Shown: positions 5,625 through 57,129 of the stretch, piece after piece | How the letters are laid out: every line of letters begins with the position of its first letter | How positions within the stretch are numbered: position 1 is the first letter of the stretch | Origin: Adlercreutzia hattorii | GTDB taxonomy: Bacteria > Actinomycetota > Coriobacteriia > Coriobacteriales > Eggerthellaceae | DNA length: 64,000 nucleotides | Reading direction: 5' to 3' | Assembly: GCF_011405655.1 (NCBI RefSeq) | Contig: NZ_AP022829.1 | Location: 2,465,001 to 2,529,000 of the forward strand | Program-made: the position numbers and the translations under genes | The notes under the pieces: model-generated | Told to the model about the DNA's origin: nothing | What the model saw: the letters and a program-made list of their open reading frames with translations, nothing else | Database searches by the model: none

Positions 5625-5638
5625 CTATCTCAGCCTCC

Positions 5639-8119: not shown

Positions 8120-8269
8120 GTCCTGACTCCTCTCTCTCCCTCGCATGTTGACGAGGACGTTCGCCAGGGAGGGGGTGGCTCGCGTCCTCGCCCGCGTGAA
8201 AAGTCTCCTCTTTGGACTTTTCGATACTGCCATTATGCCGAGGTGCGCCGATTAATAGCGATACGCTAT

Positions 8270-36945: not shown

Positions 36946-37100
36946 GGCTCCTCCTCTCAGCTTCGTCGCGGCCCGCATCCGGCACATGGCGGCGCGCAAC
37001 CTCCTTCAAAGCGCAAAAATCCAAGCCCCACCTGGGGCGTTCTTTCTCTGAATTTGGAACGATGGCTATACTAAGCTCCGAGCAGTAAAAAGTAAAATGA

Positions 37101-37129
37101 GACTTCTTGTAAAACATTTCAAGAAAGTC
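37101..37129. promoter_or_regulatory. Dyad between divergent EamA and LysR genes
   Basis: GACTTCTTG (37101-37109) faces CAAGAAAGTC (37120-37129) with ten bases between them, an A+T-rich interrupted palindrome of the size LysR proteins bind. It lies about 60 bases before the LysR start. Confidence 0.5.
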
Positions 37130-37189
37130 TTATACTTGTGCAGACGCACAACACGAAGCAGGCTTATCCGCACCCCCAGGAGGCGCCTT

Positions 37190-38468: not shown

Positions 38469-39341
38469 CTAGAAGAACGGGTAGATGGACACGCCGGTCA
38501 TGTAGAACACCGCGCGCAGGGCAAGCGCGCTCACGAGCACGCAGGCCGCGCCCACGGCGCCCCACACCTTCCAGTCGCCCTTGGCGCGCCCGGCCAGCGC
38601 GGAGCCCAGGCCGGCCACCGCGACCACGATGGCCGTGACGGCCCAGGCCGCAGATGCGCCGGAGAAGGGCGCCGTCGAGCCGTCGGGAGTGATGTCCATG
38701 GTCGGGCTCGTCGGGTCGAACCAGAACTCCACCGCCGTGTAGGAGCCAGCCGTGGCCTGCATGGCGACGAGATAGGCCACCACAAGCACCACGTTCACGG
38801 CCTGGCCGATAAGGTTCGCCTTCGCATCGAGGTCGGACGCCTCGTCGCGCACGGCGCAGATGAGCGCCATGGTGGCCGGGCCGAAGCCGCAGGCCGCGCC
38901 GAGCAGCGAGGCGATCTGCAGAAGCGAGTCCCAGGCGGGCAGCGAGGCCATCATGTAGGAGTGGCCCATGACGACGATGAGGACCGCCGCCACGACGATG
39001 CCGATGGCGGAAAGCCACGCCGGCACCTTCGCGTCATCGCCGCCGCGGCGCAGGTACACGAAGCAGACGCCCATGACGACGGCGAGCACCACGATGGCGA
39101 TGAGCTCCTGAGTGATGCCGCTGGTCAAGTGTCCGAAGCCGTTGAAGATGCGCTCCCAGTGCTCCAGATGGAAGAACACCGCGATGCCGCCCACGACCAG
39201 AAGCACGGCCGAGGTGATGAGCGCCGGCATCTGGGCGCGGGCGCCCTTTCCGCGAAGCGCCCAGACGCACTGAGCCGCGAACAGGCCGGCCGCCCAGGCC
39301 AAGAGCGTGGTGAACAAGATAAGGGGCCATTGCAGTTCCAT
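38469..39341 (-). CDS. DmsC-like membrane anchor subunit
   Basis: A 290-residue membrane protein with eight predicted helices, beginning M-E-L-Q-W-P-L-I-L-F-T-T-L-L-A-W-A-A-G, in the DmsC family. The pattern H-L-E-H-W-E-R-I-F-N-G-F-G-H and L-T-S-G-I-T-Q-E-L near residues 57-78 is shared by DmsC proteins, as is G-H-S-Y-M-M-A-S-L-P-A-W. It oxidises menaquinol and feeds electrons to the ferredoxin subunit. Its start shares a base with the stop of the ferredoxin gene. Confidence 0.88.
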   Translation of the reverse strand: MELQWPLILFTTLLAWAAGLFAAQCVWALRGKGARAQMPALITSAVLLVVGGIAVFFHLEHWERIFNGFGHLTSGITQELIAIVVLAVVMGVCFVYLRRGGDDAKVPAWLSAIGIVVAAVLIVVMGHSYMMASLPAWDSLLQIASLLGAACGFGPATMALICAVRDEASDLDAKANLIGQAVNVVLVVAYLVAMQATAGSYTAVEFWFDPTSPTMDITPDGSTAPFSGASAAWAVTAIVVAVAGLGSALAGRAKGDWKVWGAVGAACVLVSALALRAVFYMTGVSIYPFF

Positions 39342-40003
39342 TATTCCCCACCCTTCCAGTCGCGGTCGCGCAGGATGTAGGCGAAGTGCGGCCCGTTGCC
39401 CACATCGGGCAGGTGGTGCACGTCGGCCTCGGTGTACTCCTTGGCCATATCGCCCAGCTTCACGCGGTTGCCGGTGTACAAATTGTCATAGGAGCGATCG
39501 ACGTCGTAGCCGATCTCCGGCGCCTCGAAGGAATCGATACCCTCGTCCAAATCGCCGAAGAAGCGGGCGCGGCCACCGCACTGGATAACGCACTGGGGCA
39601 GACCGCCCTGGGCGGTGATCTGCTCGCAGAGCGTGCACTTCTCCACGACGCGCTCCTCCTCATTCAAGTAGCGCACGCCGTAGGGGCAGGCCATGGCGCA
39701 GAACTGGCAGCCGATGCACTTCGACTTGTCGATCTGCACGGTGCCGTCCTCCAGCTTATGGGAGGCGCCCGTCGGGCACACCTTCACGCACTCGGGGTTC
39801 TCGCAGTGCTGGCACTGCACGGGCAGGTAGTACATCTCCACGTCGTGGGCGCTCGTGGCACCGGCCTTAAGACTCGGGCCGATGCGGAGCACCTTGTTCC
39901 AGTACGAGCCGATCGGCACGTTGTTCACGGCCTTGCACGCGACCATGCACGCCAGACAGCCCACGCAGCGGTTCAGGTCGGTGACGATTGCTTTGTTCGC
40001 CAT
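39341..40003 (-). CDS. DmsB-like four-cluster ferredoxin subunit
   Basis: A 220-residue iron-sulfur protein with four cysteine sets: C-V-G-C-L-A-C-x3-C, C-Q-H-C-x4-C-x3-C-P, C-I-G-C-Q-F-C-x3-C-P and C-T-L-C-x11-C-x3-C. It is very similar in layout to the protein at 4962-5624. It links the DmsC-like anchor to the catalytic subunit and starts three bases after that gene. Confidence 0.93.
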   Translation of the reverse strand: MANKAIVTDLNRCVGCLACMVACKAVNNVPIGSYWNKVLRIGPSLKAGATSAHDVEMYYLPVQCQHCENPECVKVCPTGASHKLEDGTVQIDKSKCIGCQFCAMACPYGVRYLNEEERVVEKCTLCEQITAQGGLPQCVIQCGGRARFFGDLDEGIDSFEAPEIGYDVDRSYDNLYTGNRVKLGDMAKEYTEADVHHLPDVGNGPHFAYILRDRDWKGGE

Positions 40004-40006
40004 GGC

Positions 40007-43000
40007 TTAGGCCTCCTCTCGGATATCGTAGTTGGGCAGCCATTCCTTCAGGCGCGGGTCGGAGGCATCGCAGATGATCTGGGTGCCGTCCTCCGGCGCG
40101 CAGGGGATGACCTTGCCGTCGGGGCAGTTCTCGGGCGTGGCCTTGTAAATCTTCACCGGCACGCCGCGCATGTGGTGCGAGCTGATGAACTTGTCCTGGC
40201 CCTCCGGATCCCAAATGCACTCGATGTTGGAGAGCAGGCAGCCGTGGGTCGGCGCCGGCAACTCCGGGAACCACCAGGCATGCTCGGCGTTGGCCCAGCC
40301 GGGGGCGATGCCGTGGTACAGATCGACGCACTGGCGCACCTTGCCCCACGCGGTCTCGATCCAAGCCCAGTCGCCCTGCTTGAGGCCGAGCTTCTCGGCG
40401 TCGGCGGGGTTCAGCTCCAGACGCGGCGCCGGCCACAGCTCGCGGCACCAGGGCAGCTGGCGATGCTCACTATGGAAGTACACCGGAATGCGACGACCGG
40501 TGGTGAGGATGATCGGGTACTCCTCAAGATCGATCTGACCACCCTGGGCAGAGGACGCGGGCGGCTCGTAGTTCGGCATGATCTCTTTCATCACATCGAA
40601 CTTGCCCGGCTCGAACTGGTTGGCCATATCGAGGCAGAACGTCTCGAACTCCATGGACCAGAAGCTCACCAGGCCCGTCGGCGTGGGGCAGCCGAAGTTG
40701 TTCACTGGCTGGCCGGTCTCGGGATCGGTCGACCAGGGAGCAGCCGTGCAGGCGTCCTTGCCCATGCGCATCCAACCGGTCTCGAAGCGGCGGTAGGTTC
40801 CCCAGCGGTTAGGCTCGATCACCTTGGCGTTGATCCAGCCGTTCTCCTGGAAGTCGTCGCGGAAGTCCTCCCAATGCTCCCACTTGCAGCCCGGGTAACG
40901 GTCGCCGAAACCGGACACCTCGTTGTGGGCCTGGAACCAATCCTCCAGACGGTCGTCGTGATGGTAGGCACCGGGCGCGTCGCCGGCAATATTGGTCCAC
41001 GTGCCGTTGGGGTTGCCCTGCTTCTCGATGGCCTCGAAGATGAGGCGGTTGATGTCGTAGTCGAACTTCGTGTCGGCCGGCGGCTCGATGCAGCGCTGCG
41101 TGAGCCCGATGCCGCCCGAAGCGCCCTGGGACACGCGGATGTTGTTGATCTCGGTCCAGTGCTGGCACGGCAGGATGATGTCGGCCATCTCGGTGCCGGG
41201 GTGATGGAACATGTTGATGTCCACCCAGAAGTCCAGCTTCGAGAGCGCCTCCCAGGCAAGCGTCGCGTTCGACATGTTCATGAACGAACCGGACTCGTTG
41301 ATGCCGCCCTTCAGCGGGTACTCGCCCTCGCCCAGGCACGCCTTCCAAATGCAGGTGGCGTCGGCCCACTCGTTGTAGTACGGCAGAATGGGGAACTTCT
41401 CGGCGCCGATCATGTTGCCCAGCACCTCGCGGCGATCCGGGATGTTCATTGGATCGACCTGCTTGTCGGCCAGATACATCGGCGGGCACATGGGCTCGCC
41501 GGTGAGCGCCTCCATGCCCTTCAGCGTCCACTTCACCTCCTGGGGCATGTTGGTGCCGGGAGCGGCCGTGGCCTGCTCGTCGACCGGCGTGCGGGAAAGG
41601 CCGCGGTTGCCGGCCGGGCCGTCGAAGTTGCCCGAGGAGTAGATGAGGTTGAGCACCGCGCGAACCGTCTGCGCGCAGTTGCCGATCTGGTCGGGCGCCA
41701 GGTTCAGATGAATGCCGCCGTTGCCGTAAGTCTGGCCCTCGGGACGCGTGGCCCACACCGTGCAGGACTCCTCGATGAGCTGCGGGTCGAGACCAGTGAT
41801 CTCGCTGGCCCACTCCGGCGTGCAATCGGCCACCGACTTGGCGAGGTAGCTCCACACCGGGCGCGCGATGTGCTTCGTGCCGTCGGCCAGCGTCACCTCG
41901 TGCTCGCCTTCCAGATCGAAGTCGATGCCGGCCTCCTCCAACTCCCAGTAGGAAATCGGCGGCAGATAGCCTTCCTGCGAGGTGCCCGCGTACACCACTT
42001 CCATCTGGTCGCGGGTGGGGGCCACGTGGTTGCAGCCCTGCCACTGGGTGGTATCGGTATCCCAGTACACCAGGCCGCCCTTACCGTCGTTGGCCTTCTT
42101 GTTCCAGGCCATGAACTTGTGGGGGCTGCCGCCCTCTACCAGATCCATCTCCTTCAGAAGACGCGTCTTCAGCTTCGTGCCGATAAGATCCTGCAAGGCC
42201 GGAACCTGAATCGGCGAGGAGAGATCGAGGTAGCGGCCGCCCGTGGGCTCCATGTCCTCCACCACGAGCAAGGACGCATCGGTCCAGCGCTTCACGAACT
42301 CCCAGTCGATGAGGTCCTTCTCAATGAGAATGTGCTGCCAGGCCAGCGCCAGCGCGCCGTCGGTGCCCGGCTCCAGGTTCAACCAGTAATCGGCCTCCTT
42401 GCCCGAGCCGGACAGGCGCGGGTCGATGCAGATGTGCGTCTCGGCGGCGCTCATGCGGTCCACCAGGTTGCGGCAGCTGTCGTCGTAGTTCGAGTTCTCC
42501 GGCGCGGTGCCCCACTGCACGTACACGCGCGGCCCGTCGCGCAGCGCCATCCACGGGGCGCCGTCGACCGAGCTGATCCAGCCCATGAGGCGACGCGGGC
42601 CTTTGCAAATCTCGGACGCCACATGGGCGTTGGGGGTGTCGAACAGCCACTTGTAGAACGCGTAGGGGCCGTAAACCCACTGACGGGATGTGCCGCACAT
42701 GTTGAAGATGGACTGACCGCCGTACTGATCCATGATCTCCTGGAACTTCGAGCCGATGGTTTCCATGGCCTCATCCCAGGTGATGCGCTGCCAGCCCGGC
42801 TCCTCGCCCTTGGGGTTGGTGCGCTTCATGGGATGGTAGATGCGGTCGGGGTGGTAGGCCGCCTGCAGCGACGACTGCGACTTGCCGCAGCAGTTGCCCG
42901 ACGACTGGAACGACGACTGGTCGCCCTCCACCTTGACGGCGCGCCCGTTCTCCACCGTGACCCACACGCCGCACTCCATCTTGCCGCAGCCGCGGCAGCA

Positions 43001-43153
43001 CGTGCGCACGCGCTTGATCTCGCTGCCGCGGCTGGGCGCCTCGGCGTCCTCGGCGAGTGCGGCGCCCGGCACCGCGCATCCGATGACCGCCGTGGCAGCC
43101 GTGGCCGCGGACAGCTTGGCGAAGGTACGGCGGCTCAAGTTGAGCTTACCCAT
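40007..43153 (-). CDS. Large Tat-exported molybdopterin oxidoreductase
   Basis: A 1048-residue catalytic subunit, clearly longer than the usual ~800 residues of DmsA. The Tat motif is S-R-R-T-F-A-K (residues 7-13), with a hydrophobic run ending I-G-C (Cys26). N-terminal [4Fe-4S] ligands are Cys53-x2-Cys56-x4-Cys61 and Cys88 or Cys89. Molybdopterin-binding features include I-T-W-D-E-A-M, N-M-C-G-T-S and the late segment S-E-H-R-Q-L-P-W. Such long, stand-alone members with a DmsB and DmsC partner and a membrane LuxR regulator next door resemble Eggerthellaceae catechol dehydroxylases and related pyrogallol-transhydroxylase-like enzymes. This substrate class is an inference. Start: AAGGAGG four bases upstream of ATG at 43153. 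Confidence 0.9.
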   Translation of the reverse strand: MGKLNLSRRTFAKLSAATAATAVIGCAVPGAALAEDAEAPSRGSEIKRVRTCCRGCGKMECGVWVTVENGRAVKVEGDQSSFQSSGNCCGKSQSSLQAAYHPDRIYHPMKRTNPKGEEPGWQRITWDEAMETIGSKFQEIMDQYGGQSIFNMCGTSRQWVYGPYAFYKWLFDTPNAHVASEICKGPRRLMGWISSVDGAPWMALRDGPRVYVQWGTAPENSNYDDSCRNLVDRMSAAETHICIDPRLSGSGKEADYWLNLEPGTDGALALAWQHILIEKDLIDWEFVKRWTDASLLVVEDMEPTGGRYLDLSSPIQVPALQDLIGTKLKTRLLKEMDLVEGGSPHKFMAWNKKANDGKGGLVYWDTDTTQWQGCNHVAPTRDQMEVVYAGTSQEGYLPPISYWELEEAGIDFDLEGEHEVTLADGTKHIARPVWSYLAKSVADCTPEWASEITGLDPQLIEESCTVWATRPEGQTYGNGGIHLNLAPDQIGNCAQTVRAVLNLIYSSGNFDGPAGNRGLSRTPVDEQATAAPGTNMPQEVKWTLKGMEALTGEPMCPPMYLADKQVDPMNIPDRREVLGNMIGAEKFPILPYYNEWADATCIWKACLGEGEYPLKGGINESGSFMNMSNATLAWEALSKLDFWVDINMFHHPGTEMADIILPCQHWTEINNIRVSQGASGGIGLTQRCIEPPADTKFDYDINRLIFEAIEKQGNPNGTWTNIAGDAPGAYHHDDRLEDWFQAHNEVSGFGDRYPGCKWEHWEDFRDDFQENGWINAKVIEPNRWGTYRRFETGWMRMGKDACTAAPWSTDPETGQPVNNFGCPTPTGLVSFWSMEFETFCLDMANQFEPGKFDVMKEIMPNYEPPASSAQGGQIDLEEYPIILTTGRRIPVYFHSEHRQLPWCRELWPAPRLELNPADAEKLGLKQGDWAWIETAWGKVRQCVDLYHGIAPGWANAEHAWWFPELPAPTHGCLLSNIECIWDPEGQDKFISSHHMRGVPVKIYKATPENCPDGKVIPCAPEDGTQIICDASDPRLKEWLPNYDIREEA

Positions 43154-43210
43154 CTCTCCTCCTTTTTCTCTCATCCTTTCGGGCGCCCCGGACGGGTCGC
43201 CCACGTTGTC

Positions 43211-43333: not shown

Positions 43334-43438
43334 TTTTGCCAAGGAAAAGGGGAGTTTTCCTTCAGGAATTCCAGGGAAAGGGCTCTCGGCGCGCACATGC
43401 GGCGACCGCCCTGCCATTCTTTCTATCGAGGGGGTCGC

Positions 43439-44956
43439 GTGAGTTTTCGTTCCATCTCAGAGAACCTGAACGCCTACCGCGAAGAAGCCGGCAGCCATCC
43501 GGTGGCCCTCGATCGCGTGCTCGGCTTTACCTTTATTCGCGCGTGGGTATACCTCATGTTCGTGGGCGCGGCCGCCAGTTCCATGACATGGAGCGGCGAG
43601 CAGATCCCGCCTTTGTTCTACGTCGTCTCCACGGCCAGCCTCTGCGCCGTGCTCTTCGGGAGCGCGCTAGCCGGCGAGCGCTTCGTGCGGTTCATGACCC
43701 ATCCGGCCGCGCGCTTCGCGGCACCCGCGCTCACCACCGGTGGAACCCTGCTTCTCGCCTCGTCGGCGGCGGGCACCGGAGCGGCCCTCTCCTTCGGCAT
43801 CCTGGGCGCCATCACAACTGGCATCGGCTCGGGGCTGATCGATCTGGGCTACGGCGAGTTGTACCGCAACGAGCCGCCCGCCCGCGCCACGTTCGAGGTG
43901 CCCCTGGCCTTCTTTCTGGCCGCCGTGGCGTTTTCCCTCGTCATCATGCTGCCGTCAGTTGTCGGCTGCCTCGTCTGCTCGCTTCTTCCCGCCATTTCCG
44001 GCTGGATCCTGTTCGTCGAGCAGCATGCCTGGTCGCGCAAGCACCAGGCCAGCGTCCTGCCCATCGATTTCGACCTGAAGTCCTTCGCCTGGCGCATCGG
44101 CGTGTGCGCGTGTTTGGTGGGCGTGGCCGACGGCATGGTGCGGGCGGCGTTCCTCTCGTCGAACAACCTGAGCATCCACGTGTTTTTGCAGTGGCCCCTG
44201 GCCGGCGCCGGGCTGCTCACCATGGTCATCGTGTACGGCGCCGCCCTGCTCTCCTCCGAGCAGAGCACGCGCACCATCTACAAAGCGGCCATCTGCGTCA
44301 TGGCCTTCTTCTTCATGCTCCTGCCCGTATTCACCAGCGCGCAAGACGTGGAAAGCGTGCTGGCCCTGGCAGGCTACGGCACCTTCAACGTGCTCATCTG
44401 GATGCTTCTGGCGGAGATCTCGTCGAACTACCGACTCTCTTCCACCGAGGTGTTCGGCATCGGGTGGGGCATGGTCACGCTCGGCGTGCTGCTCGGCTCC
44501 ATTGCCGGCAACATCGTGGATCAGTTCGCTCCCTTCACGCCTCAATTCTTAAGCCTCATCGCGCTCATCGCCACCATGGCGGTGCTGCTGTCGTTCCTGT
44601 TCGTGTTCCGCGAAAGCGACCTCATCGCGCTGACCGAGGAGCCGGAAAGCGAGGCCGAGAACGCCGAAGATCGCGCGCTCGGCAGCTCCAGCGACGCACC
44701 TCCCACAGCTAGCGACAGCCCCCGCCCGCGCTTCCAGGACCGTTGCCTGGAAGTGGCCGCCGCCTTCGAGCTGTCGCCCAAGGAGACCGAGGTGATGATC
44801 CTCTTCGCCAAGGGCCGCTCGGCCGCCCGCATTCAAGAGGAGCTGTTCATCTCGAAGGGGACCGTGAGCACCCATTTGCGCCACATCTACCAGAAGATGG
44901 ACGTCCATTCCAAACAGGAAATGCTCGACGTCATCGAAGGCGTCACGAGGGAGTAG
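43439..44956 (+). CDS. Membrane-anchored LuxR-family regulator
   Basis: A 505-residue protein: about twelve hydrophobic helices over residues 30-400 followed by a cytoplasmic linker and a C-terminal LuxR HTH (L-S-P-K-E-T-E-V-M-I-L-F-A-K-G-R-S-A-A-R-I-Q-E-E-L-F-I-S-K-G-T-V-S-T-H-L-R-H-I-Y). This layout, a transporter-like membrane region fused to a DNA-binding domain, is common in Eggerthellaceae and usually sits next to the enzyme gene it induces. Start is GTG at 43439 with GAGGGGG six bases before it. It is divergent from the large molybdoenzyme operon. Confidence 0.9.
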   Translation: MSFRSISENLNAYREEAGSHPVALDRVLGFTFIRAWVYLMFVGAAASSMTWSGEQIPPLFYVVSTASLCAVLFGSALAGERFVRFMTHPAARFAAPALTTGGTLLLASSAAGTGAALSFGILGAITTGIGSGLIDLGYGELYRNEPPARATFEVPLAFFLAAVAFSLVIMLPSVVGCLVCSLLPAISGWILFVEQHAWSRKHQASVLPIDFDLKSFAWRIGVCACLVGVADGMVRAAFLSSNNLSIHVFLQWPLAGAGLLTMVIVYGAALLSSEQSTRTIYKAAICVMAFFFMLLPVFTSAQDVESVLALAGYGTFNVLIWMLLAEISSNYRLSSTEVFGIGWGMVTLGVLLGSIAGNIVDQFAPFTPQFLSLIALIATMAVLLSFLFVFRESDLIALTEEPESEAENAEDRALGSSSDAPPTASDSPRPRFQDRCLEVAAAFELSPKETEVMILFAKGRSAARIQEELFISKGTVSTHLRHIYQKMDVHSKQEMLDVIEGVTRE

Positions 44957-44982
44957 GGCCTTCCCCTTTTCTATGCCTTCAG

Positions 44983-44988
44983 TATAAT
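44983..44988 (+). promoter_or_regulatory. Candidate -10 box of the second LuxR gene
   Basis: TATAAT at 44983-44988, about 22 bases before the ATG and followed by the AAAGGAGGGG ribosome site. The -35 element is weak. It means the second regulator can be transcribed separately from the first. Confidence 0.5.
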
Positions 44989-45010
44989 AGCGGGCGGAAA
45001 GGAGGGGACT

Positions 45011-46552
45011 ATGAGTCTACGAGGGCGCACTGCGCTCATTATCGCGGGTGCGGGAATGAATCTGAGCACCTACGGTATCGGCGTGTGGGGCGACAGCGTG
45101 CTGCTCTCGAGCGGTTCCTTCGTGGGACCGGCCCTCGCCGCGCTGTCGGACACCTATCTGCTCTTCTCGGCCCTGGGCCTGTTCGGCGCCCTTATCGCCC
45201 GGGTGATTATTGCCGTCGCGTCGGGAGCGAGCAACCATCGCTACCTCGCCTGCGGGCTTGGACCCATGGCGATGGCAGCCGCACTATTCATATCCGGTGT
45301 TTGGAACACCTCAGGGCTTCTGGTGGCCCTAGCGGCTTTCTGCGTCGGCTGGAGCTTCGCCTGCCAGAGCCTGTTCTGGGTGACATCAATTTCTTTCGAG
45401 CCCAAGCAGATGCGCACGATCTTCCCTTTGGAACTAGCCTGCGCAGCCGCGTTCAACGGACTGTTCGTCATCGGCTTCATGGACAACCAGGGGCTGTTCC
45501 TCGGGTTGTGCATCGCCCTTTCCGCCGCCGCCAGCGTAGCCCTGGTGCGCCTTGATCAAAAATGTGAGCAGCCGAAAATGGTGCCCGTAGCAGGATTCTT
45601 CGAGAGCCGCTATGTGCCTGCTTTTCGCACCTTTGCTGAGGTGCTGTTCTGCGTGGTGGCCCTTCAGACCATAGCCCCCACTCTGAACTACATGGGGTTT
45701 TTGGGAGATCTTTCCCCGATCGAACAGCAGCTGGTCGTAGCAGGAGCCAAGCTCGCCGCCGCCGTGGCCCTCGTAGCCATCCTGCGCTTCTCGAAGGCGC
45801 CGCTGCTCTCCGTCCAGGTGTTCAAGGTGGTCACGCCCGTGCTCATCCTGTTACTGTTCGCCGTGCCCTTTGCGCCGGCGCCCTACCTGCTCGGACTGTT
45901 GGCAGCGGGTTCTTGCTTGCATTTCGTTGTAATGAACTCGCTGTTCTGCATTGACGCCATCGCTATCGCGCAACGGCACCGTCTTGTGTTCGAGGCGTTC
46001 TACGGCGCCGGCTACCTCTTACTCATGGGCTTTTGCTCGGTGCTGGAGAAAGTCATGCCCCAGCTTCTGGCCGCCGGCTCCTCCGCCGAGCTGCTGCTGG
46101 TGTTCGGGGTGTTCTTCTCCGTGTACGTGCTCAGCATGGTGCTTGTGTTGGTGCGCAGACGCCGCCGTGATGAGGATGGCGGCGCACTGCCGTCCGACCG
46201 TTTTGTACCAGATGCAGACACGCGGAGAGATGCTTCAGCGACGCTCTCGGAAGCAGAGCCTTCCTCGGGCATCGCCACCACCGAAGATGCTCCCGCCCCT
46301 CTACCTATTGCCGAACGCGTAGGCATCGTACAACGGAAATTCGGTCTGTCCGACAGGGAGGCCGAAATCGTGCTGCTCATAACACGAGGACGCAACGTGC
46401 CAGCCATTGCCGAGGAACTCGTTATATCCCAAAATACCGTGCGCACCCACATAAAGCGCATCTATAGAGCTTGCGGCGCCCACGCTCGCCAAGAGCTTAT
46501 CGAGCTCTGCGAGACTGCGGAGACCGAAGAGAACTCCCTCTCCCAGGATTAG
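45011..46552 (+). CDS. Second membrane-anchored LuxR-family regulator
   Basis: A 513-residue paralogue of the preceding protein, with about twelve membrane helices (residues ~5-380), an acidic linker and a C-terminal LuxR HTH (L-S-D-R-E-A-E-I-V-L-L-I-T-R-G-R-N-V-P-A-I-A-E-E-L-V-I-S-Q-N-T-V-R-T-H-I-K-R-I-Y). The flavoenzyme gene 136 bases downstream is its likely target. AAAGGAGGGG precedes the ATG. Confidence 0.9.
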   Translation: MSLRGRTALIIAGAGMNLSTYGIGVWGDSVLLSSGSFVGPALAALSDTYLLFSALGLFGALIARVIIAVASGASNHRYLACGLGPMAMAAALFISGVWNTSGLLVALAAFCVGWSFACQSLFWVTSISFEPKQMRTIFPLELACAAAFNGLFVIGFMDNQGLFLGLCIALSAAASVALVRLDQKCEQPKMVPVAGFFESRYVPAFRTFAEVLFCVVALQTIAPTLNYMGFLGDLSPIEQQLVVAGAKLAAAVALVAILRFSKAPLLSVQVFKVVTPVLILLLFAVPFAPAPYLLGLLAAGSCLHFVVMNSLFCIDAIAIAQRHRLVFEAFYGAGYLLLMGFCSVLEKVMPQLLAAGSSAELLLVFGVFFSVYVLSMVLVLVRRRRRDEDGGALPSDRFVPDADTRRDASATLSEAEPSSGIATTEDAPAPLPIAERVGIVQRKFGLSDREAEIVLLITRGRNVPAIAEELVISQNTVRTHIKRIYRACGAHARQELIELCETAETEENSLSQD

Positions 46553-46609: not shown

Positions 46610-46688
46610 TTGAGACACCTATCGATCCTCTTTTTGCCCTATCGTCTTCCCGTCGCAAAAAGCGATGGAAGACGAAAAGGAGGGTCTT

Positions 46689-49400: not shown

Positions 49401-50255
49401 ATGAAAGACACTTCCTCGTTCCTCGATCTCGCATTAGACGATTCCATGGGTTTCGACCCCCTCGGCGCCTTCGACGATGATGTCGAAGAAGATGCTGAGG
49501 AGGTAACCGAGGGCTATCTGGGCACCCCCCACACCGACGTCCCGGCGCCCGTCGTGGATACGCGCCCGGCCCCCGAGCGCATCGCCGACCTGTTCAGCGC
49601 TATGGCGCCGCGCCGTCGCACGCTGCTCGGCATGATCACGTTCTGCGCCGCGCCGCAGACCACCGACGCCCTGGATGCCGAGGTGGATCGCCTGCAGGCG
49701 GACAACTTCTCCGTGTACTCCCCCGCTTCGCTCGCGAACTTGCTCGAGCGCGCCGGAGCCCTCGCCCGCGTGACCGCCGACGGCGAACCGTACCCCGAGG
49801 GCGACCCGGAGCCGGTGCTCGTGGAAGTCGACGGCGTGTCCTACTACGAGGCCGGCGAGGCGCCGGAGGTCTGCTGGCTGGCCACGGAGGACGGCGCGGC
49901 CTACGCCGAGGCCGACAAGCCCCTCGACCGCCTGACAGACCTGCTTTCCGAGGACGCGAAGTACGCCACGATCTATGAGCGCATTCTCGGCCTTACCGCC
50001 CAGGAGAGCGGCGCCTCGATGCCGACCATCAACGAGGCCGTGGACAACGACGAACTGCTGAAGAGCCCTCGTCTGTACGCGCCCCACTTCATCGACAAGT
50101 TGGAGAAATGCGATGCCGTGGAATGGCGCGACAAGAGCTGGCGCATTACCGAGGTCGGCCGTGCGGGACAGCGCATCGTGGCCGACCTCGTAGCGGCCCA
50201 AGCCGCGCCCGAGCCCGAGGCGCAGGCCGATAAGGCCGCTCACGACGCCCAGTAG
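49401..50255 (+). CDS. Uncharacterised protein heading the TorD-NapGH cluster
   Basis: A 284-residue acidic cytoplasmic protein, no signal or membrane segment. I do not recognise the family. Two regions look folded: residues ~55-190, and the C-terminal ~85 residues, Y-E-R-I-L-G-L-T ... R-L-Y-A-P-H-F-I-D-K-L-E-K-C-D-A-V-E-W-R-D-K-S-W-R-I-T-E-V-G-R-A-G, which look like a winged helix. The tail is Ala/Glu/Pro rich. The start at 49401 is preceded by AAAGGGCGG. It is 78 bases before the TorD gene and presumably co-transcribed. Confidence 0.72.
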   Translation: MKDTSSFLDLALDDSMGFDPLGAFDDDVEEDAEEVTEGYLGTPHTDVPAPVVDTRPAPERIADLFSAMAPRRRTLLGMITFCAAPQTTDALDAEVDRLQADNFSVYSPASLANLLERAGALARVTADGEPYPEGDPEPVLVEVDGVSYYEAGEAPEVCWLATEDGAAYAEADKPLDRLTDLLSEDAKYATIYERILGLTAQESGASMPTINEAVDNDELLKSPRLYAPHFIDKLEKCDAVEWRDKSWRITEVGRAGQRIVADLVAAQAAPEPEAQADKAAHDAQ

Positions 50256-50333: not shown

Positions 50334-51095
50334 ATGACCGAAACCGACACCATAGCCACTGCCGCCGCAGCAACCCCCGCCGCCGAGGAGGCGACTGACC
50401 TGGCCGCACTCGCCGAGCTCACGGCCCAGCGCTCGGCCGTCTATCGTCTGCTCGCCCGCCTGTACCGCGTGGAGGTGGACGAGGAATTCCTAACCGAGCT
50501 GAAGGCCATGCGCTTCCCCGCCGCCACGGGCAATACCGCCGTGGATGCCGGCTACCGCGCCATCGCCACCTACCTGTCTGGCGCCGACGCCCACACCATC
50601 ACCGATCTGGCCGTCGATTACGTGCGTGCCTTCATCGGCCACGGCGTCGATGCCTACTCGGCCGCCTACCCCTTCGAGTCGGTGCACACGAGCCCCAAGC
50701 GCCTCATGATGCAGGAGGCCCGCGACGAGGTACTGGCGGTCTACCGCAGCGAGGGCCTGGACAAGCTGCCCAGCTGGAAGGAGTCCGAGGATCACATCGC
50801 GCTGGAACTGGAGTTCATGGCCGTGCTCGGCGACCGCATTGTGGCAGCAGCCGAAGCCAGCGACGAGGCGGAGGTGGAGCGTCTGCTTTCCACCCAGCGC
50901 AACTTCCTGGAGGATCATTTGGCAAGCTGGGCACCGCTCATGACCGCCGATCTGCGCCGCTTCGCGCAATGCGGTCTCTACCAGGGCCTCGCCAGCCTGA
51001 CCGACGGCTTTCTGCAGGTGGAAGAGGAGTTCTTCGACGAAATCTTCGAAGGCGAGGGCGACGACTCCGCCGACGAGGCAGCCGAGGGCGAATAG
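50334..51095 (+). CDS. TorD-family chaperone, no adjacent client enzyme
   Basis: A 253-residue helical protein with the TorD marks Y-P-F-E-S-V-H-T-S (about residue 112), D-H-I-A-L-E-L-E-F-M-A and F-L-E-D-H-L-A-S-W-A-P. N- and C-terminal Ala/Glu-rich tails flank the core. No molybdoenzyme gene is adjacent: the nearest is over 6 kb upstream on the other strand. GAGGAG is six bases before the ATG. Confidence 0.86.
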   Translation: MTETDTIATAAAATPAAEEATDLAALAELTAQRSAVYRLLARLYRVEVDEEFLTELKAMRFPAATGNTAVDAGYRAIATYLSGADAHTITDLAVDYVRAFIGHGVDAYSAAYPFESVHTSPKRLMMQEARDEVLAVYRSEGLDKLPSWKESEDHIALELEFMAVLGDRIVAAAEASDEAEVERLLSTQRNFLEDHLASWAPLMTADLRRFAQCGLYQGLASLTDGFLQVEEEFFDEIFEGEGDDSADEAAEGE

Positions 51096-51180
51096 CCACG
51101 CAGCCGAAAGACAACATCCAACGAGGGTCGACACCGACCATCCATGACGACGAGGGCGAATGAGAGAGGAAGAGGAAACC

Positions 51181-51825
51181 ATGGCAGACACCGAAAACAC
51201 GGCGGCCCCGAAAAAGGAGGGGCGCCCCGTCATCACGCGCCGCGCGCTGTGCGTGGGGCTCGGCGGCACGGCGGCGCTTCTGGGCCTGGGCGCGGTGCGC
51301 TACGCCGGCAGCGCCCCGCTCGTGCGCCCGCCCGGAGGCCAGGACGAGGAGGCGCTCGTCTCGGCGTGCATTCGCTGCGAGAAGTGCTACGAGGTGTGTC
51401 CGCGCGGCGTCATCGCGCCGGCTCATCTGGAGGACGGCATCCTGAACATGCGCACGCCCGTCATGAACTTCGACGCGAACTGGTGCGATTGGTGCACCGA
51501 GGAGAACGGCGGCGAGCCTCTGTGCGTGGCATCGTGCCCCACCGAGGCGCTCAAGGCCGGCTCGACCCCCGAGACTGGCGTGCTCGGCGTGGCGGAACTC
51601 AACCAGGACCTGTGCCTGGCCTACCGCCTCATCGGCTGCCGATTCTGCTACGACGCCTGCCAGTTCGAGGCCATGGAGCTTGACGAGAACAACCGACCCT
51701 ACGTGATCGCCGACGCCTGCAACGGCTGCGGGGCCTGCGAGAGCGTCTGCGTGTCGCTGCAGAACGGCTCCATCTCCGCCGGCGCCACCGAGCGCGCCAT
51801 CATCGTCCGTCCCCTCGAGTCGTAA
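51181..51825 (+). CDS. NapG-like exported ferredoxin
   Basis: A 214-residue protein with a Tat-like N terminus (I-T-R-R-A-L-C-V-G-L-G-G, about residues 15-26) and four cysteine sets: C-I-R-C-E-K-C-x3-C-P, the longer C-D-W-C-x8-C-x3-C-P, C-R-F-C-x3-C and C-N-G-C-G-A-C-x3-C. This is the NapG/MauM type, which takes electrons from NapH and passes them to periplasmic reductases. Start at 51181 follows AGAGGAAACC. Confidence 0.85.
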   Translation: MADTENTAAPKKEGRPVITRRALCVGLGGTAALLGLGAVRYAGSAPLVRPPGGQDEEALVSACIRCEKCYEVCPRGVIAPAHLEDGILNMRTPVMNFDANWCDWCTEENGGEPLCVASCPTEALKAGSTPETGVLGVAELNQDLCLAYRLIGCRFCYDACQFEAMELDENNRPYVIADACNGCGACESVCVSLQNGSISAGATERAIIVRPLES

Positions 51826-51838
51826 AGGAGGTGCCCTC

Positions 51839-52891
51839 GTGAATACCAAGCGACTCCGCACCATCATTCCCCTCGCCGTCATCGGCGTCATCGGCGTGGG
51901 CTTTGCCACCCATGTGGGCGTGGGCACGCTGTCGGCCATCGGCTGGCAGGACATCTCGCTTCTGTGCCCCCTGGGCGCGCTCGCGACGATGATCGCCACG
52001 AAGACCCTGCTCCCCCGCGCGGTCATCTCGGTCGTCATCGCGCTCGCCCTCATCCTGCTGTTCGCCCGCGCCTTCTGCGGCTGGGTGTGCCCCGTGCCCG
52101 TGGTGTCGAAGATCCGCGGCATCTTCTCGAAGAAGACGTCGAACACCGACATGACCGGCACCGGCGTCTTGCCCGCCGAGGATAACCCCCTGGTGAAAGC
52201 CGCGAAGGGATCGAAAGCCGATAGCGTGGCGGACGCGGCGGACGACGCAGACACGGCAGACGCAGCAGCCCTTGCCGCCGACGCCCCCGCGCCCCTTTCC
52301 GCCGACGAGCAGGCGGCCCTCTCCGGTTGCGGCCACAGCTGCTCTTCCTGCGCCGAGAAGCGGGCGACTCTCGATTCCCGCCACGTCATCCTGGGCGGCT
52401 CCCTGCTCTCGGCGGCCGTCTTCGGTTTTCCCGTGTTCTGCCTCATCTGCCCCATCGGCCTCACCTTCGCCACCATCGTGCTGGTCATGCGCCTGTTCGC
52501 CTTCGGCGACGTGGCCTGGGGCGTCATCCTCGTGCCGGCGCTCTTGCTCGCCGAGGTGGTGTTTTTCCGCAAGTGGTGCAGCACGTTCTGCCCCATCAGC
52601 GCGCTCATGAGCCTCGTGGGCAAGGCGAACCGCACCTTCGTGCCCGCCATCGACAACGCGAAGTGCCGCGAGAGCGCCCAGGGCACCTCCTGCGAGGTGT
52701 GCGCCGCCGTGTGCCCCCAGGGCATCAACGTGCGGCATCCCGAGGCCGGCATGAGCTTCTCGGAATGCACCAAGTGCCGCGCCTGCGTGGAGGCCTGCCC
52801 CACACGTGCCATCACCATGCCGTTTCTGCCGAAGAAAGCGGCGCCTTCCACCGTTGTCGTGGAGGACGACGAGACCGTGCCGGCAGCCTAG
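51839..52891 (+). CDS. NapH-like polyferredoxin membrane protein
   Basis: A 350-residue protein with about four membrane helices and the C-G-W-V-C-P, C-L-I-C-P-I and W-C-S-T-F-C-P motifs of NapH/CcoG-type quinol oxidases, followed by two [4Fe-4S] sets (C-E-V-C-A-A-V-C-P-Q-G and C-T-K-C-R-A-C-x3-C-P-T) at the cytoplasmic end. A ~60-residue charged insertion (about residues 105-165), rich in Ala and Asp, with G-C-G-H-S-C-S-S-C-A at its end, is unusual. It begins with GTG after AAAGGAGGTG. Confidence 0.88.
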   Translation: MNTKRLRTIIPLAVIGVIGVGFATHVGVGTLSAIGWQDISLLCPLGALATMIATKTLLPRAVISVVIALALILLFARAFCGWVCPVPVVSKIRGIFSKKTSNTDMTGTGVLPAEDNPLVKAAKGSKADSVADAADDADTADAAALAADAPAPLSADEQAALSGCGHSCSSCAEKRATLDSRHVILGGSLLSAAVFGFPVFCLICPIGLTFATIVLVMRLFAFGDVAWGVILVPALLLAEVVFFRKWCSTFCPISALMSLVGKANRTFVPAIDNAKCRESAQGTSCEVCAAVCPQGINVRHPEAGMSFSECTKCRACVEACPTRAITMPFLPKKAAPSTVVVEDDETVPAA

Positions 52892-52981
52892 GGCAAGCCC
52901 GCTCGCGTCGTCACCCCTCCTGCGACGCGAGCGGGGCGTGCGTTTCCGCGACGCCGCGCCCAGGAAAGATCGCCCTGCGCG

Positions 52982-53027
52982 GTCTTTCCCCGTCAGCCTG
53001 CCGCTGGGCCGGCTGACGGGGAAAGAC
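52982..53027. repeat. Perfect 17-base stem between NapH-like and UvrD-like genes
   Basis: GTCTTTCCCCGTCAGCC (52982-52998) pairs exactly with 53011-53027 across a 12-base loop, 38 bases before the next start. No T run follows, so it is more likely an mRNA-stability or attenuator structure than a simple terminator. Confidence 0.6.
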
Positions 53028-53064
53028 ACGTGGAACGAGCCCCTTTGCGGAAGAGAGGAAGACT

Positions 53065-55215
53065 ATGACGTTGGAACTTGCCTCAACCCCGACCGCCACG
53101 CTCATTGAGGGCGGCGTCGGCTGCGGGAAGACTACCGCGCTCGTCGCGCGTGTGGCGGCACTTTTGGAAGACGGCGCGGCACCGGAGGACATGCTGGTGC
53201 TGGCCGCCACGCCCGATGCGGCCCGCGTCCTCGGCGCGCGCCTGACCGAGGCCGCCGGCGAGCGCGGGAACGCGATTGAGGTCACTTGCGCCCGCGAGGT
53301 GACCTTAGGACTGCTCGCCAGCGAGGAGGGCCGCGCCTTCAGCGGACGCGCCGGGCGCCTCGTCACGCCCTTAGAGCTCGGCTTCATCATGGAGGACATG
53401 AAAACGAGCGGCATGAAGCAGCGGCGCCTGCGCGAGATGCTCAAGTTCTTTTACCGCAATTGGACCGAGCTGGCCGGCGGCGCCGAGGACGACGACGGCT
53501 GGCTCATCCCCGGCGAGGAGGCCGACACCCACGCGCTTCTGAAGGACGTGCTACGTTTCACCGGCGGCATCCTGGAACCGGAAGCGGCGGCGATGGCCGT
53601 GCGCTTTTTGCTCGCATGCCCCGACGCTTTGGCCGATGTGCAGCGATCCTACGTGCTCGTGGACGACTACCAGATGCACTCTCGCGCCTCCCAGCATCTG
53701 GCGAACCTACTGGCTCGCGACTCCATCACCGTAGCCGCCGATCCCACGGCCGTGGTAGAGGTCTTCGACAGCTACCCCTACGGCGAGGGCATCGGCGAGT
53801 TCACCCAGGCCAACGATGGTTGCGAACGCATCGTTCTGGCGGCGAGCCACACCTGCCCCGCCGCCGCCCGGGCCGCTAGCCGCCTGCGCGCGTCGCTAGA
53901 CGCGGGCTCGGCGCCCTTGGGCGATGAGGCGGCGGAAAGCGACGCCCCCTCGCCCTCCCAAAGTGCTTCATCCGCGACGTCGGGCACGACGGCCACGCCG
54001 ACCGTTCCCGACCGCGCAGCGGCCGCTGCCTCGTTCTCGGCCCTCGAAGCTGCCGATCCGACAGCCGAGATGGACGCCGTAGCCGGTGCCATGCAGGCCG
54101 CGCTGGAAGCGGGAGCCGACCCCTCTTCGATTTACGTGCTCGCCTTCCATCCGGCCTGGGAGCGCCGCATTTCCCGCGCGCTTGAGACCCGCGGCATTGC
54201 GGCGGCAACCCCCGTCCGAGGGCGTGTGGCCGCAGGCGACTACCGCGACCTTGACCGCTGCGCCGCCGCACGCCTACTGACGGCCCTCGCACTGGTCGCC
54301 AACGCGCATGACGCCCTGGCGTGGCGCGCCTGGTGCGGTTTCGGCGACTATCTAGCCAACAGCGCGGTATTCGCTGACATGCGCGCCGAGGCCGACGAGC
54401 AGGGAAAGGGCCTCGTCGCGATGCTCGACGAGGTGGCAGCCGCCGCGCCCGAAGAGGGATTCCCGGGCACCGGCATCGACCGCGTCCTGGACGCCTACTG
54501 CACGGGCTGCACCCTCATCGAGCAAGCTCAGGGTTTGGAAGGCGACACGTTGATCGGCACCCTCGCCTCCGCTCTTAATCTGACCGGCGAAAACGGCGAG
54601 CGCGCGATACAGCTTGTCCGCGCCCTCACCGCCCCCGAAGCCGAGCCCGTCGCATCCGCTTCCGACACCTCTTCCGATGCGAACGCGCCCGTGCCCGCAC
54701 CGTCAAACGCCATCGCGCCAACCTCGTCAGAAACAGGCACCGCTGCGCCGAGCGGCGCCCGTGCCCTTATTGCCCGAGCCAGGCGCCGTATGAACGCCCC
54801 CATTTTCGAGAACTCGGAAGGCCGCGTACTTGTCGGCGACAGCGCGCACCTGATGGGCCGCGCACCCGCCATGCTGGTGCTCGCCGGCTTCACGAACGGC
54901 TTCTTCCCCGCGCGCGACTTCTTCGACGCCACCGTGACCACCCCGGACAAGCAGAAGCTCGTCCGTGCTACCGACACGCGACGCCTCTACGCCGCCGCAG
55001 GCAAGGCGACGCAGCGCCTGGCGGCCAGCTGGTTCACTTCCATCGGGCTCGTAGAGGCCGAGACCCTGAAGCTGGAAATCGGCCGCGTGAAGCTTCGCCG
55101 CGGCGAGCGCATCGCCGTTACCGCGCCGAGCATCTACCTGGCCGACATCGACCCTGGCGCAGAAACCTGCACCGCCGAAGCTGCCGAAACCGCAGCCGCA
55201 GCACCCTCATCTTAA
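53065..55215 (+). CDS. UvrD-like superfamily I helicase with degenerate motifs
   Basis: A 716-residue protein with UvrD/PcrA layout. Walker A is good (E-G-G-V-G-C-G-K-T-T, about residue 16) and a Walker B-like V-L-V-D-D-Y-Q (about residue 200) replaces D-E-x-Q. The motif V region reads L-V-L-A-G-F-T-N-G-F-F-P-A, like the PcrA E-x-G-L-F-P segment. However, motif IV lacks the usual arginine-rich N-Y-R-S, and motif VI (R-R-L-Y-A-A-A-G-K-A-T-Q-R-L) lacks the T-R-A triad. A long Ala/Ser/Pro-rich linker occurs around residue 300. It may bind nucleotide without unwinding DNA. Being downstream of TorD/NapGH genes is unexpected. Start follows AGAGGAAGACT. Confidence 0.75.
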   Translation: MTLELASTPTATLIEGGVGCGKTTALVARVAALLEDGAAPEDMLVLAATPDAARVLGARLTEAAGERGNAIEVTCAREVTLGLLASEEGRAFSGRAGRLVTPLELGFIMEDMKTSGMKQRRLREMLKFFYRNWTELAGGAEDDDGWLIPGEEADTHALLKDVLRFTGGILEPEAAAMAVRFLLACPDALADVQRSYVLVDDYQMHSRASQHLANLLARDSITVAADPTAVVEVFDSYPYGEGIGEFTQANDGCERIVLAASHTCPAAARAASRLRASLDAGSAPLGDEAAESDAPSPSQSASSATSGTTATPTVPDRAAAAASFSALEAADPTAEMDAVAGAMQAALEAGADPSSIYVLAFHPAWERRISRALETRGIAAATPVRGRVAAGDYRDLDRCAAARLLTALALVANAHDALAWRAWCGFGDYLANSAVFADMRAEADEQGKGLVAMLDEVAAAAPEEGFPGTGIDRVLDAYCTGCTLIEQAQGLEGDTLIGTLASALNLTGENGERAIQLVRALTAPEAEPVASASDTSSDANAPVPAPSNAIAPTSSETGTAAPSGARALIARARRRMNAPIFENSEGRVLVGDSAHLMGRAPAMLVLAGFTNGFFPARDFFDATVTTPDKQKLVRATDTRRLYAAAGKATQRLAASWFTSIGLVEAETLKLEIGRVKLRRGERIAVTAPSIYLADIDPGAETCTAEAAETAAAAPSS

Positions 55216-55851: not shown

Positions 55852-57129
55852 CTACCGCTCGTAGACGTTGGGGACGCCGAGCAGGTCGCTCATGGCGTTC
55901 ACGATGGACTTCGGGTCGTTCACCTTGTGCTTGCGGGGACGCATCTCGATGCGCTCGGAGCGGCCGCGCTTGGTCACGTCCGTGGCGAACACGTCGGTCG
56001 AAAGGGTCAGCGCGTTCGTCGGGCAGATGTCCTCGCAGCAATGGCACTGCACGCAGCGGCCCGTGTAGTGGTCGATGCCGAAGGGCTTGCCGGTCTCAGC
56101 GGCGGTGGCGGCGTCGCCGAACTTGCGAATGGCCTCGGTGGGGCAGAAGGTGGCGCACATCTGGCAGGAGGTGCATTTCTCCGGATCGATGATGACGTGG
56201 CCGAACAGACGCGTATCGATCATGATGTCCTCGGGCTCGCCCAGGTTGCTGAGGGCCAGAAGCAGCCGTCCGCGTCTCTCGGGCAGGAAGTGGGGCAGCG
56301 TGCCGTCCTCGGTCACTTTTGCGAACTTGGGCTCTTCCAGTTCATCGGCGCCCAGCTTCTCGCGCACCACGTGCTCGGCGGTGATGGCAGCCGCGGCCCG
56401 CGCCTCGTCGCGCATGGATGAGAAGAACCCGCGGCGGCCCGTGTCGAACTCGGCGGGTTCGGCGAGGCGCACCGAGCGCGGCAGCTTGGTCGTGAGCTTC
56501 ACCGACACGTCGCTGCCCCAGGTTTCCAGCAGCAGCGCGGCGGTGTCGCGCACCAGTTGGGCCGCGCGGTCAGGCGCAGCGCCCACGGTCCCGGCGGTCT
56601 CCGCGGCCTCCGTGGCTTCGGCATTACCCTCTGCCGTCGTCCCTTCGCCGGCATCGGCATCCTCGGTCTCCCCTTCCACAGGCCCGGCCACCAGCGCGAC
56701 AGACGTCGCCCCGCCCGCAGCGAGCACGGCAATGAAGCTCTCGTCCACCCGGCCCAGGCTCTTCACCACGGCCACCTTCGCCGGGTCGTACTTGCCCTCG
56801 GCCGCCGCCTGCATGGCCGCATCCATGATGACCGCCGCGCCGTCGTTGGCCTGCATGGCCGCCACAGCCGCGCGCAGGAGCTCCTTGTCGTCAGGCTTCT
56901 TCGACTCCAGGGCCGCCGTGGGACACACCGTGGCGCAGGTGCCGCAACCCACGCAGCGCTCCGGCGCCACCGCCAGGTCGTTCCCCTCCACGGAAATGGC
57001 GCCCGTCGGGCACGCCTCGGCGCAGCGGCGGCAGGAAGCGTTGCGATTGCGCACCACCACGCACCGGTTCGGCTGTACGGCCAGCGACTGGCTCTCAAGC
57101 TTCTCGAAAAGTCCCAGAATGTTGTCCAT
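55852..57129 (-). CDS. Four-cluster ferredoxin protein with central alpha/beta domain
   Basis: A 425-residue cytoplasmic protein. Two cysteine sets lie at the N terminus (C-R-R-C-A-E-A-C-P-T, C-V-G-C-G-T-C-x3-C-P-T) and two near the C terminus (C-T-S-C-Q-M-C-x3-C-P-T, C-V-Q-C-H-C-C-E-D-I-C-P-T), separated by a ~240-residue region containing an Ala/Glu-rich linker. It probably holds four [4Fe-4S] clusters and acts as a soluble electron carrier or as a subunit of a larger complex. It is convergent with the UvrD-like gene and may belong to the same functional cluster. GAGAGGATATCC precedes the start. Confidence 0.82.
   Translation of the reverse strand: MDNILGLFEKLESQSLAVQPNRCVVVRNRNASCRRCAEACPTGAISVEGNDLAVAPERCVGCGTCATVCPTAALESKKPDDKELLRAAVAAMQANDGAAVIMDAAMQAAAEGKYDPAKVAVVKSLGRVDESFIAVLAAGGATSVALVAGPVEGETEDADAGEGTTAEGNAEATEAAETAGTVGAAPDRAAQLVRDTAALLLETWGSDVSVKLTTKLPRSVRLAEPAEFDTGRRGFFSSMRDEARAAAAITAEHVVREKLGADELEEPKFAKVTEDGTLPHFLPERRGRLLLALSNLGEPEDIMIDTRLFGHVIIDPEKCTSCQMCATFCPTEAIRKFGDAATAAETGKPFGIDHYTGRCVQCHCCEDICPTNALTLSTDVFATDVTKRGRSERIEMRPRKHKVNDPKSIVNAMSDLLGVPNVYER

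Follow-up and report, generated by a model that had tools for sequence, protein, structure and literature searches.

A UvrD-fold protein with decayed motor motifs in Adlercreutzia hattorii as a candidate accessory factor of a molybdoenzyme

What a helicase-like protein does directly behind a set of respiratory accessory genes is the question raised by a stretch of 64,000 nucleotides from Adlercreutzia hattorii (contig NZ_AP022829.1, positions 2,465,001 to 2,529,000), referred to here as the window. A sequence-only reading had described this protein as a UvrD/PcrA scaffold with a good Walker A but altered motifs II, IV and VI, and had proposed that the fold was reused, for example as a nucleotide-dependent assembly factor, an AddB-like nuclease partner or a regulator. 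The gene, here named D, is the last of a run with the order E-F-G-H-D and, as that reading stated, directly follows genes of the TorD, NapG and NapH types. The run adjoins a DMSO-reductase-family ABC set with LuxR and LysR regulators, and the features are as follows.

37097..38077, + strand: LysR-type regulator (Pfam)
38469..39341, - strand: C, DmsC-like membrane anchor (weak match, under the Pfam cut-off)
39341..40003, - strand: B, [4Fe-4S] subunit (Pfam)
40007..43204, - strand: A, DMSO-reductase-family catalytic subunit (PF00384, PF01568, PF04879)
43397..44956, + strand: LuxR-type regulator with a long N-terminal part (Pfam)
45011..46552, + strand: second LuxR-type regulator of the same kind (Pfam)
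49401..50255, + strand: E, tandem winged-helix protein by prediction, FDPL motif conserved near the N-terminus (model and profile)
50334..51095, + strand: F, TorD-type chaperone (PF02613)
51160..51825, + strand: G, NapG-like ferredoxin (Pfam)
51839..52891, + strand: H, NapH-like membrane ferredoxin (Pfam)
52982..53027, + strand: perfect 17-bp hairpin in the H-D gap, with the same stem in the orthologous locus L034
53065..55215, + strand: D, DadhD-type degenerate UvrD-fold protein of 716 aa (Pfam, model, alignment, BLASTP)
53110..53133, + strand: Walker A of D, GGVGCGKT, residues 16-23 (alignment)
53662..53667, + strand: motif II of D, D200-D201, with Asp in place of the catalytic Glu
55852..57129, - strand: I, multi-[4Fe-4S] ferredoxin-like protein of 425 aa (Pfam and profile)

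A is the catalytic subunit of a putative catechol-dehydroxylase-type molybdoenzyme and shares 42% identity with its counterpart in the dadh (dopamine dehydroxylase) cluster. Gut Coriobacteriia breathe on dopamine, catechins and lignans via such molybdoenzymes (PMC11887054), and a 12-TM type of LuxR regulator has been described (PMC9734109). The genome to which the window belongs carries four D genes and one fragment, together with 34 matches to PF00384, some of which are pieces of one gene. For E we chose the start at 49401, a longer open reading frame from 49242 having been given earlier. A Foldseek search with E returned no match at E≤0.001; a closer structural look related it to winged-helix proteins, chiefly via its C-terminal half, and this C-terminal domain reaches Z scores of up to 10.1 to Sso10a and to the MarR/PadR types. 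The E proteins are strongly acidic, with a median net charge of -12.3 per 100 residues. The sequence-only reading had omitted both E as part of the run and the fact that accessory genes of this type are published. The entire H-D gap has a folding z of -5.6, and no T-run was seen downstream of its hairpin.

Fold and motif decay of D

The Pfam match of D is to UvrD and covers residues 9-68 only (E 6e-10), and the sequence matches in the PDB are weak (PcrA, E 0.012). The AlphaFold2 model, for which 28 relatives were included in the input, is confident (pLDDT 86.7, pTM 0.87), with two low-confidence segments (283-308 and 531-559) that are both low-complexity insertions. It matches UvrD (2is6_B) over its whole length, with a Z score of 25.3, an rmsd of 4.0 and 581 residues aligned; the predicted fold is a complete 1A-1B-2A-2B UvrD, in line with the scaffold named from the letters alone. 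The comparison with AddB and PcrA that had been suggested gave only a partial match to AddB (3u4q_B, Z 17.9, 417 residues aligned), confined to residues 2-696 of the 1132 in the chain. Between the window D and its 83%-identical orthologue in L034, dN/dS is 0.26, and over 10 pairs it ranges from 0.10 to 0.39, so D is under purifying selection and is not a decaying gene.

The helicase motifs were read from an alignment that combines 70 rows of the D family with a canonical set of 23 UvrD-type proteins, 5 of the 75 family rows being left out (1 frame-shifted, 4 on very long tree branches). The canonical set has 218 columns conserved at 90% or more; the window D keeps 55 of them, and 46 show the same residue in at least 50% of the family. 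Walker A is as good as had been described, with G21-K22-T23 retained. The alterations in motifs II, IV and VI were borne out as well, and the decay exceeds them, since the Q-motif and motifs III and V are also gone; on alignment, the window D thus lacks the Q-motif and motifs III, IV, V and VI, and a full helicase motif set did not emerge. Motif II reads Asp-Glu in 23/23 canonical rows, whereas the catalytic Glu is found in 0/70 family rows, its position being Asp in 64 of them, and the first Asp is present in 65/70. The Walker A Lys occurs in 55/70 rows. Within these P-loop-bearing rows GKT and D200 are both invariant (55/55 each), which argues that in this branch nucleotide binding is constrained and the motor is not. 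As far as the alignment indicates, the window branch retains a nucleotide site that has lost both its catalytic Glu and the motif IV and VI arginines.

In UvrD/PcrA, motif III contacts DNA through its Tyr and Arg and motif V through its His, and the motif III, YRT and 2B 'RGIG' segments face DNA in UvrD. Among the 70 family rows, motif III retains its Gln in 7 and its Tyr and Arg in none, motif V has neither His nor Lys in any row, and the Arg of the 2A 'YRT' is likewise found in 0/70; the motif IV Arg persists in 15/70, and motif VI has Arg in 6 rows and Lys in 41. Conversely, conservation reaches 90% or more in the D family, and not in UvrD, at 24 positions, including R98, E110, D111, Q210, P238, G242, W365, D392, R421, W423, L430, S433 and R674. 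Because P238, G242, W365, D392, L430 and S433 fall in the segments that replace motif III, YRT and 'RGIG', the old DNA cleft seems to have been reshaped for another ligand. The lower net charge of D (-2.90 against -1.52 per 100 residues) is a weak sign against nucleic-acid binding; it is weak because acidic conserved columns (9/46 kept) have been lost as often as basic ones (13/47 kept).

Neighbourhood and range of the D family

The link between D and the TorD/NapGH-like genes is conserved across the Eggerthellaceae and their relatives, a point that the sequence-only reading had proposed to check. The 94 full-length D genes were reduced to 75 non-redundant ones, and neighbour profiles were searched in six frames around the D loci, where the recurring set consists of A, B, C, E, F, G, H, I and LuxR/LysR regulators. 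Of the 75, 46 are well flanked, with 6.5 kb or more before the D start and 8.5 kb or more behind it, and in 44 of these one or more of the genes A, E, F, G and H lie within 9.5 kb of D. By gene, E and F are each near 40 of these 46 D genes, A and G near 35, H near 31, LuxR near 30 and I near 29; both E and a TorD-type F are near D in 40/46, and LuxR is absent within 9.5 kb at 16/46. No DNA-repair neighbourhood was seen in the clustered D loci.

As the loci had been collected via D, the reverse search, from E to D, was run in 60 relatives. The count was confined to the strongest E matches, 66 with 107 bits or more; D lies within 12 kb of 41 of them, and E is near 41 of the 54 D genes in these relatives. 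Some of the E loci lacking D are near contig ends. Full-flank A-E-F clusters truly without D are found at L175, L176, L177 and L178, and a further one, at L180, belongs to a genome with no D at E≤1e-35. D-less clusters likewise carry LuxR genes. When presence of D is mapped onto a tree of A subunits (66 in all, 47 with D and 19 without), the label has to change 10 times, and supported branches impose 9 of these changes. These changes and the D-less clusters indicate that D is a modular addition and not something that every enzyme of this class needs. Help in trans is possible where D sits elsewhere in the genome.

In the class, 35 of 296 genomes match D at E≤1e-60: 32 from the window's family, 2 from the same order and 1 (G503) from another family of the class. 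The G503 protein has a canonical-looking N-terminal sequence and may be an ordinary helicase. In the phylum (396 genomes), scores above 500 bits are confined to the family of the window, the next best being 165 bits. The D loci with genus names are all in Coriobacteriia, namely in Adlercreutzia/Enterorhabdus, Parvibacter, Slackia, Gordonibacter, Senegalimassilia, Rubneribacter, Eggerthella, Paraeggerthella and Raoultibacter.

Several candidates were set aside in the course of this survey. Four proteins from outside the order (L153-L156, 100-165 bits) were considered as distant D members and are read as ordinary UvrD-type helicases: DEYQ and a GD..Q(S/C)IY motif are found in L153, L154 and L156, KGL and TRA also in L154 and L156, and KGL in the partial L155, and there is no respiratory cluster around any of the four. 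A fusion of H with D, suspected from long D open reading frames at L131, L033 and L158 where H seemed to be missing, was rejected, as the reading frame of the N-terminal extensions differs from that of H and the H profile does not match them; H was recovered by six-frame search at the suspected loci. The neighbour cluster 'c12' coincides with E and F in the six-frame search, was rejected as a gene, and is taken for an antisense artefact of the gene caller.

D evolves at a pace similar to E, the divergence relative to A being 4.61-fold for D (177 pairs) and 5.08-fold for E (123 pairs). The distances of D correlate with those of G (0.76), H (0.72), c9 (0.70), E (0.64), C (0.57) and F (0.55), a pattern that could stem from the accessory run being inherited together. 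The correlation with A (0.28) is low and no better than that with LuxR (0.29), so the catalytic subunit is not singled out as a partner of D.

The dopamine dehydroxylase counterpart

In our literature search, DadhD appears by name in a single relevant paper (J Am Chem Soc 2025, PMC11887054), which names the accessory genes that go with the dopamine dehydroxylase of Eggerthella lenta. There, DadhD is a helicase domain-containing protein, or 'predicted helicase', DadhE is hypothetical, DadhF is TorD-like, DadhG and DadhH are NapG- and NapH-like, and DadhI also belongs to the accessory set. According to the same paper, dehydroxylases were produced in a foreign host only together with accessory genes, and dadhD-H were indispensable in the host used, Gordonibacter urolithinfaciens with the dadh plasmid. 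Without DadhD the enzyme was inactive and the Dadh protein undetected, whereas loss of E-H spared the protein but not its activity; the protein was detected in most inactive strains and was absent in the dadR and dadhD deletions only (PMC11887054). Its authors favour an action of DadhD at the locus or on the mRNA. E and F are predicted or known to act on the catalytic subunit, on which the AlphaFold3 results of the paper place them; in its main text, DadhD does not appear there. The accessory genes of the cadh cluster serve several enzymes of their own cluster and do not support Dadh (PMC11887054).

We located a dadhD gene at L160 (genome G423). The order there is C-B-A on the - strand, LuxR, LysR-type, then D-E-F-G-H-I on the + strand, which matches both the order and the regulators in print. 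Residue 506 of its A subunit, counted from the Met preceding the twin-arginine signal, is Ser, the published non-metabolising allele, whereas all of the 8 other dadh-type A subunits that were examined have Arg there. Gene order, regulators and residue 506 all identify the L160 D as the probable dadhD product. This protein of 620 aa has CLCVEHDASDDVAPALL at the expected P-loop position, with no GKT, and it matches nothing in Pfam at E≤1 and nothing relevant in NCBIfam. It scores 568.7 bits against the family profile, by which the window D is found by construction, and BLASTP aligns it with the window D at 26% identity over 624 alignment columns (E 2e-31). GKT is also missing in the 13 other rows of its clade on the 75-row tree and in the Eggerthella loci L195 and L196. 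Two further loci, L197 and L198, seem to be repeats of L152 and L149.

On the first tree of D (75 rows), the P-loop label takes 4 changes, of which starred branches force 3. A pair of rows is discounted: L159_8872, whose P-loop lies in a preceding frame-shifted open reading frame, and L054_9965, which is 552 aa long and on a very long branch. Without them (73 rows, 57 with and 16 without a P-loop) the best tree takes 2 label changes, a single one of which is imposed by well-supported branches, so that the loss in L044 and L048 is suggested as a second, independent one.

That DadhD is essential and needed for the Dadh protein, and that this type of accessory gene exists, is already published. 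New here is the location of dadhD in a genome with the Ser506 allele, the D of which is without any Walker A. Since DadhD has no Walker A, its essential role cannot be ATP-driven unwinding, an argument that falls if the authors' DadhD is another gene. A reused fold acting as an assembly factor or regulator fits the DadhD genetics (PMC11887054), and this part of the sequence-only reading is supported, as is its description of D as a degenerate UvrD. Its qualifier 'nucleotide-dependent' agrees with the P-loop-bearing rows but not with the genetically tested DadhD, and can hold for only part of the family.

Proposed role and known systems

We are highly confident that D is a non-motor accessory of a molybdoenzyme: a UvrD scaffold that would no longer be a motor and would serve as an accessory factor for the catechol-dehydroxylase-type enzyme. 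As a P-loop-less protein does the essential job in one branch, that job is not ATP-driven motion. In the mechanism that we propose, the reshaped cleft between the former motor and 2B domains would bind the nascent or apo catalytic-subunit polypeptide, and D, working with E and the TorD-type F, would guard this subunit from loss until cofactor insertion and Tat export. The Walker A and Asp-Asp of the window branch may hold a nucleotide that serves as a slow switch or has a structural role, and in the dadhD branch the nucleotide site would be gone too. Whether D, as a pseudohelicase of the DadhD family, is a dedicated factor acting in just this way is to us an evenly balanced matter. Polypeptide binding is mildly favoured because E and F are predicted or known in print to act on the catalytic subunit, the presence of D does not track LuxR, and the cadh set serves several enzymes. 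Counting against it are the published AlphaFold3 results, the low correlation with A, the winged-helix-like domains of E and the D-less A-E-F clusters. An action on protein rather than on DNA or mRNA is plausible, if a little short of an even chance, and an action on DNA or mRNA is a tentative but serious prospect.

The latter corresponds to the proposal of PMC11887054, in which D would be a nucleic-acid-binding expression factor that binds without unwinding, either at the promoter with the LuxR-type activator or on the mRNA. We regard it as possible, with reservations. The restriction of Dadh protein loss to the dadR and dadhD deletions speaks for it, as do the fold of D, which is that of a nucleic-acid enzyme, and its steady winged-helix-like neighbour E. 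HelD offers a precedent: though UvrD-like, it acts on RNA polymerase and not as a helicase. However, the DNA-contacting residues of motif III (Tyr, Arg) and motif V (His) are gone in 70/70 rows, E is very acidic, and LuxR is missing near 16/46 D genes but present in D-less clusters.

An active helicase or translocase with unusual motifs could be read from the intact overall fold and from the invariant Walker A and first motif II Asp of the 55 P-loop rows, but without the Q-motif, the catalytic Glu and motifs III, V and VI, and with no P-loop in the essential DadhD and the examined members of its clade, we consider it very unlikely. Still less credible is a repair or defence protein, or the inactive half of an AddB-like helicase-nuclease, placed here by chance: the P-loop region has weak PADLOC matches (RTasHel 9e-8, GajB 0.001) and the AddB chain matches in structure, whereas the respiratory neighbourhood is conserved, a C-terminal nuclease part is missing, the E. 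lenta-type DadhD has no PADLOC match, and DadhD is essential for Dadh (PMC11887054). Finally, D might sense or deliver a nucleotide-bearing ligand such as the guanine-dinucleotide molybdenum cofactor or its precursor, the P-loop-less branch doing so via the new cleft alone. In 55 rows the P-loop is invariant and motif II is catalytically weakened, which would suit such a role, as would the operon shared with a TorD-type cofactor-insertion chaperone; the loss of D, unlike that of E-H, removes the protein itself (PMC11887054), and we find this reading improbable.

From a broader perspective, the accessory-factor reading can be extended, speculatively, to an enzyme-specific licensing factor for metalloenzyme biogenesis, in which a non-motor scaffold would decide the survival of the molybdoenzyme polypeptide, with nucleotide-gated and nucleotide-free branches, and would evolve fast alongside a likewise converted winged-helix E. 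If true, the UvrD fold would have taken on a function new to it, and a further class of maturation factors for molybdoenzymes would stand beside TorD/NarJ. DadhD stands in print as a 'predicted helicase', and its sequence rules out an ATP-driven one, which shifts the question from unwinding to binding. The natural D members with and without a P-loop offer a comparison for the same job.

Among known systems, UvrD, PcrA and Rep (SF1A) share the whole fold and Walker A with the window D, which differs in lacking the catalytic Glu, the Q-motif and motifs III-VI and in having gained the 24 near-invariant family-specific residues. AddB has a UvrD-like fold with decayed motor motifs as well, but at about 1150 residues it carries a C-terminal nuclease and an Fe-S cluster. 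D stops at domain 2A without that nuclease, and only one Cys column in the D family reaches 50%, at 57%; the AddB-like nuclease partner of the sequence-only reading fails on these two points. The core of D also resembles Mycobacterium smegmatis HelD (Z 14.4, 324 residues aligned), in which about 190 residues before the motor domain reach into RNA polymerase. The alignment starts at residue 192 in HelD and at residue 9 in the model of D, which begins about 9 residues before the matched core; a HelD-like reading fails for want of this N-terminal RNA-polymerase arm.

Utp25 serves eukaryotic ribosome assembly and belongs to a different superfamily. What D has in common with it and with other pseudohelicases is the use of a helicase fold as a scaffold without motor residues (PMC9539457). 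DadhD itself is homologous to the window D over nearly the whole length, has the same E-F-G-H partners and lies next to the same enzyme family (PMC11887054); it differs at 26% identity in having no Walker A, and the dadh order is D-E-F-G-H-I where the window has E-F-G-H-D. The D of the E. lenta catechin dehydroxylase (cadh) cluster, at L158, shares the E-F-G-H-D order and Walker A, is 39% identical (E 2e-128) and groups with the window D in one set of 36 rows with a support of 95 on the 75-row tree, although it ends a cluster of several catechol dehydroxylases and the window stretch has one ABC set.

A hairpin upstream of D

The degenerate UvrD-fold protein D is separated from the accessory genes E-F-G-H (winged-helix-type, TorD-type, NapG-like and NapH-like, respectively) by a strongly folding gap.

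52892-53064, H-D gap, strongly folding, with a 17-bp perfect stem

It folds much more strongly than shuffled controls (z -5.6), and the stem is present as an identical copy at the orthologous locus L034. A search of the window yielded only four perfect stems that are at least 14 bp long and have a loop no longer than 15. No T-run accompanies the stem in the gap. This hairpin may control how much D is made compared with E-F-G-H.

Composition and integrity of the accessory set

D is absent from the molybdoenzyme set at 4962-8233, where a second, more distant catalytic subunit of 864 aa is encoded with a B subunit. Clusters lacking D can also contain E.

49401-50255, forward strand, E, two predicted winged-helix-like domains behind a disordered acidic N-terminus

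In structural comparisons of the predicted model, the C-terminal domain of E matched Sso10a-2 with Z 10.1, and the first domain reached Z 8.3, a value resting on a single match. A near-invariant FDPL motif sits in the disordered acidic N-terminus and looks like a docking peptide.

In genome G019, D lies with the enzyme subunits A-B-C and with G-H at one site, whereas E and F lie with neighbour-gene cluster c14 and the LuxR-type gene about 108 kb away (L068 and L179). The two groups are contiguous in relatives; therefore, the accessory set can function from two genome locations.

Apparently damaged D genes were also seen. The third D gene of the Eggerthella-type genome G423 (L159 8643-10578) reads as broken across two frames, which may be real or a sequence error, and the window's own genome carries a remnant of an additional D gene (L033, C1:368635-369234) close to an intact one.

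Regulators and flavoprotein near E

43397-46552, two adjoining LuxR-type regulators
46665-48965, flavoprotein, Oxidored_FMN and pyridine-nucleotide-disulphide domains, twin-arginine-like start

PMC9734109 describes regulators of this kind as 12-TM activators in Eggerthella. The flavoprotein, placed between the regulators and E, could act on a linked substrate, by analogy with Cber on catechin.
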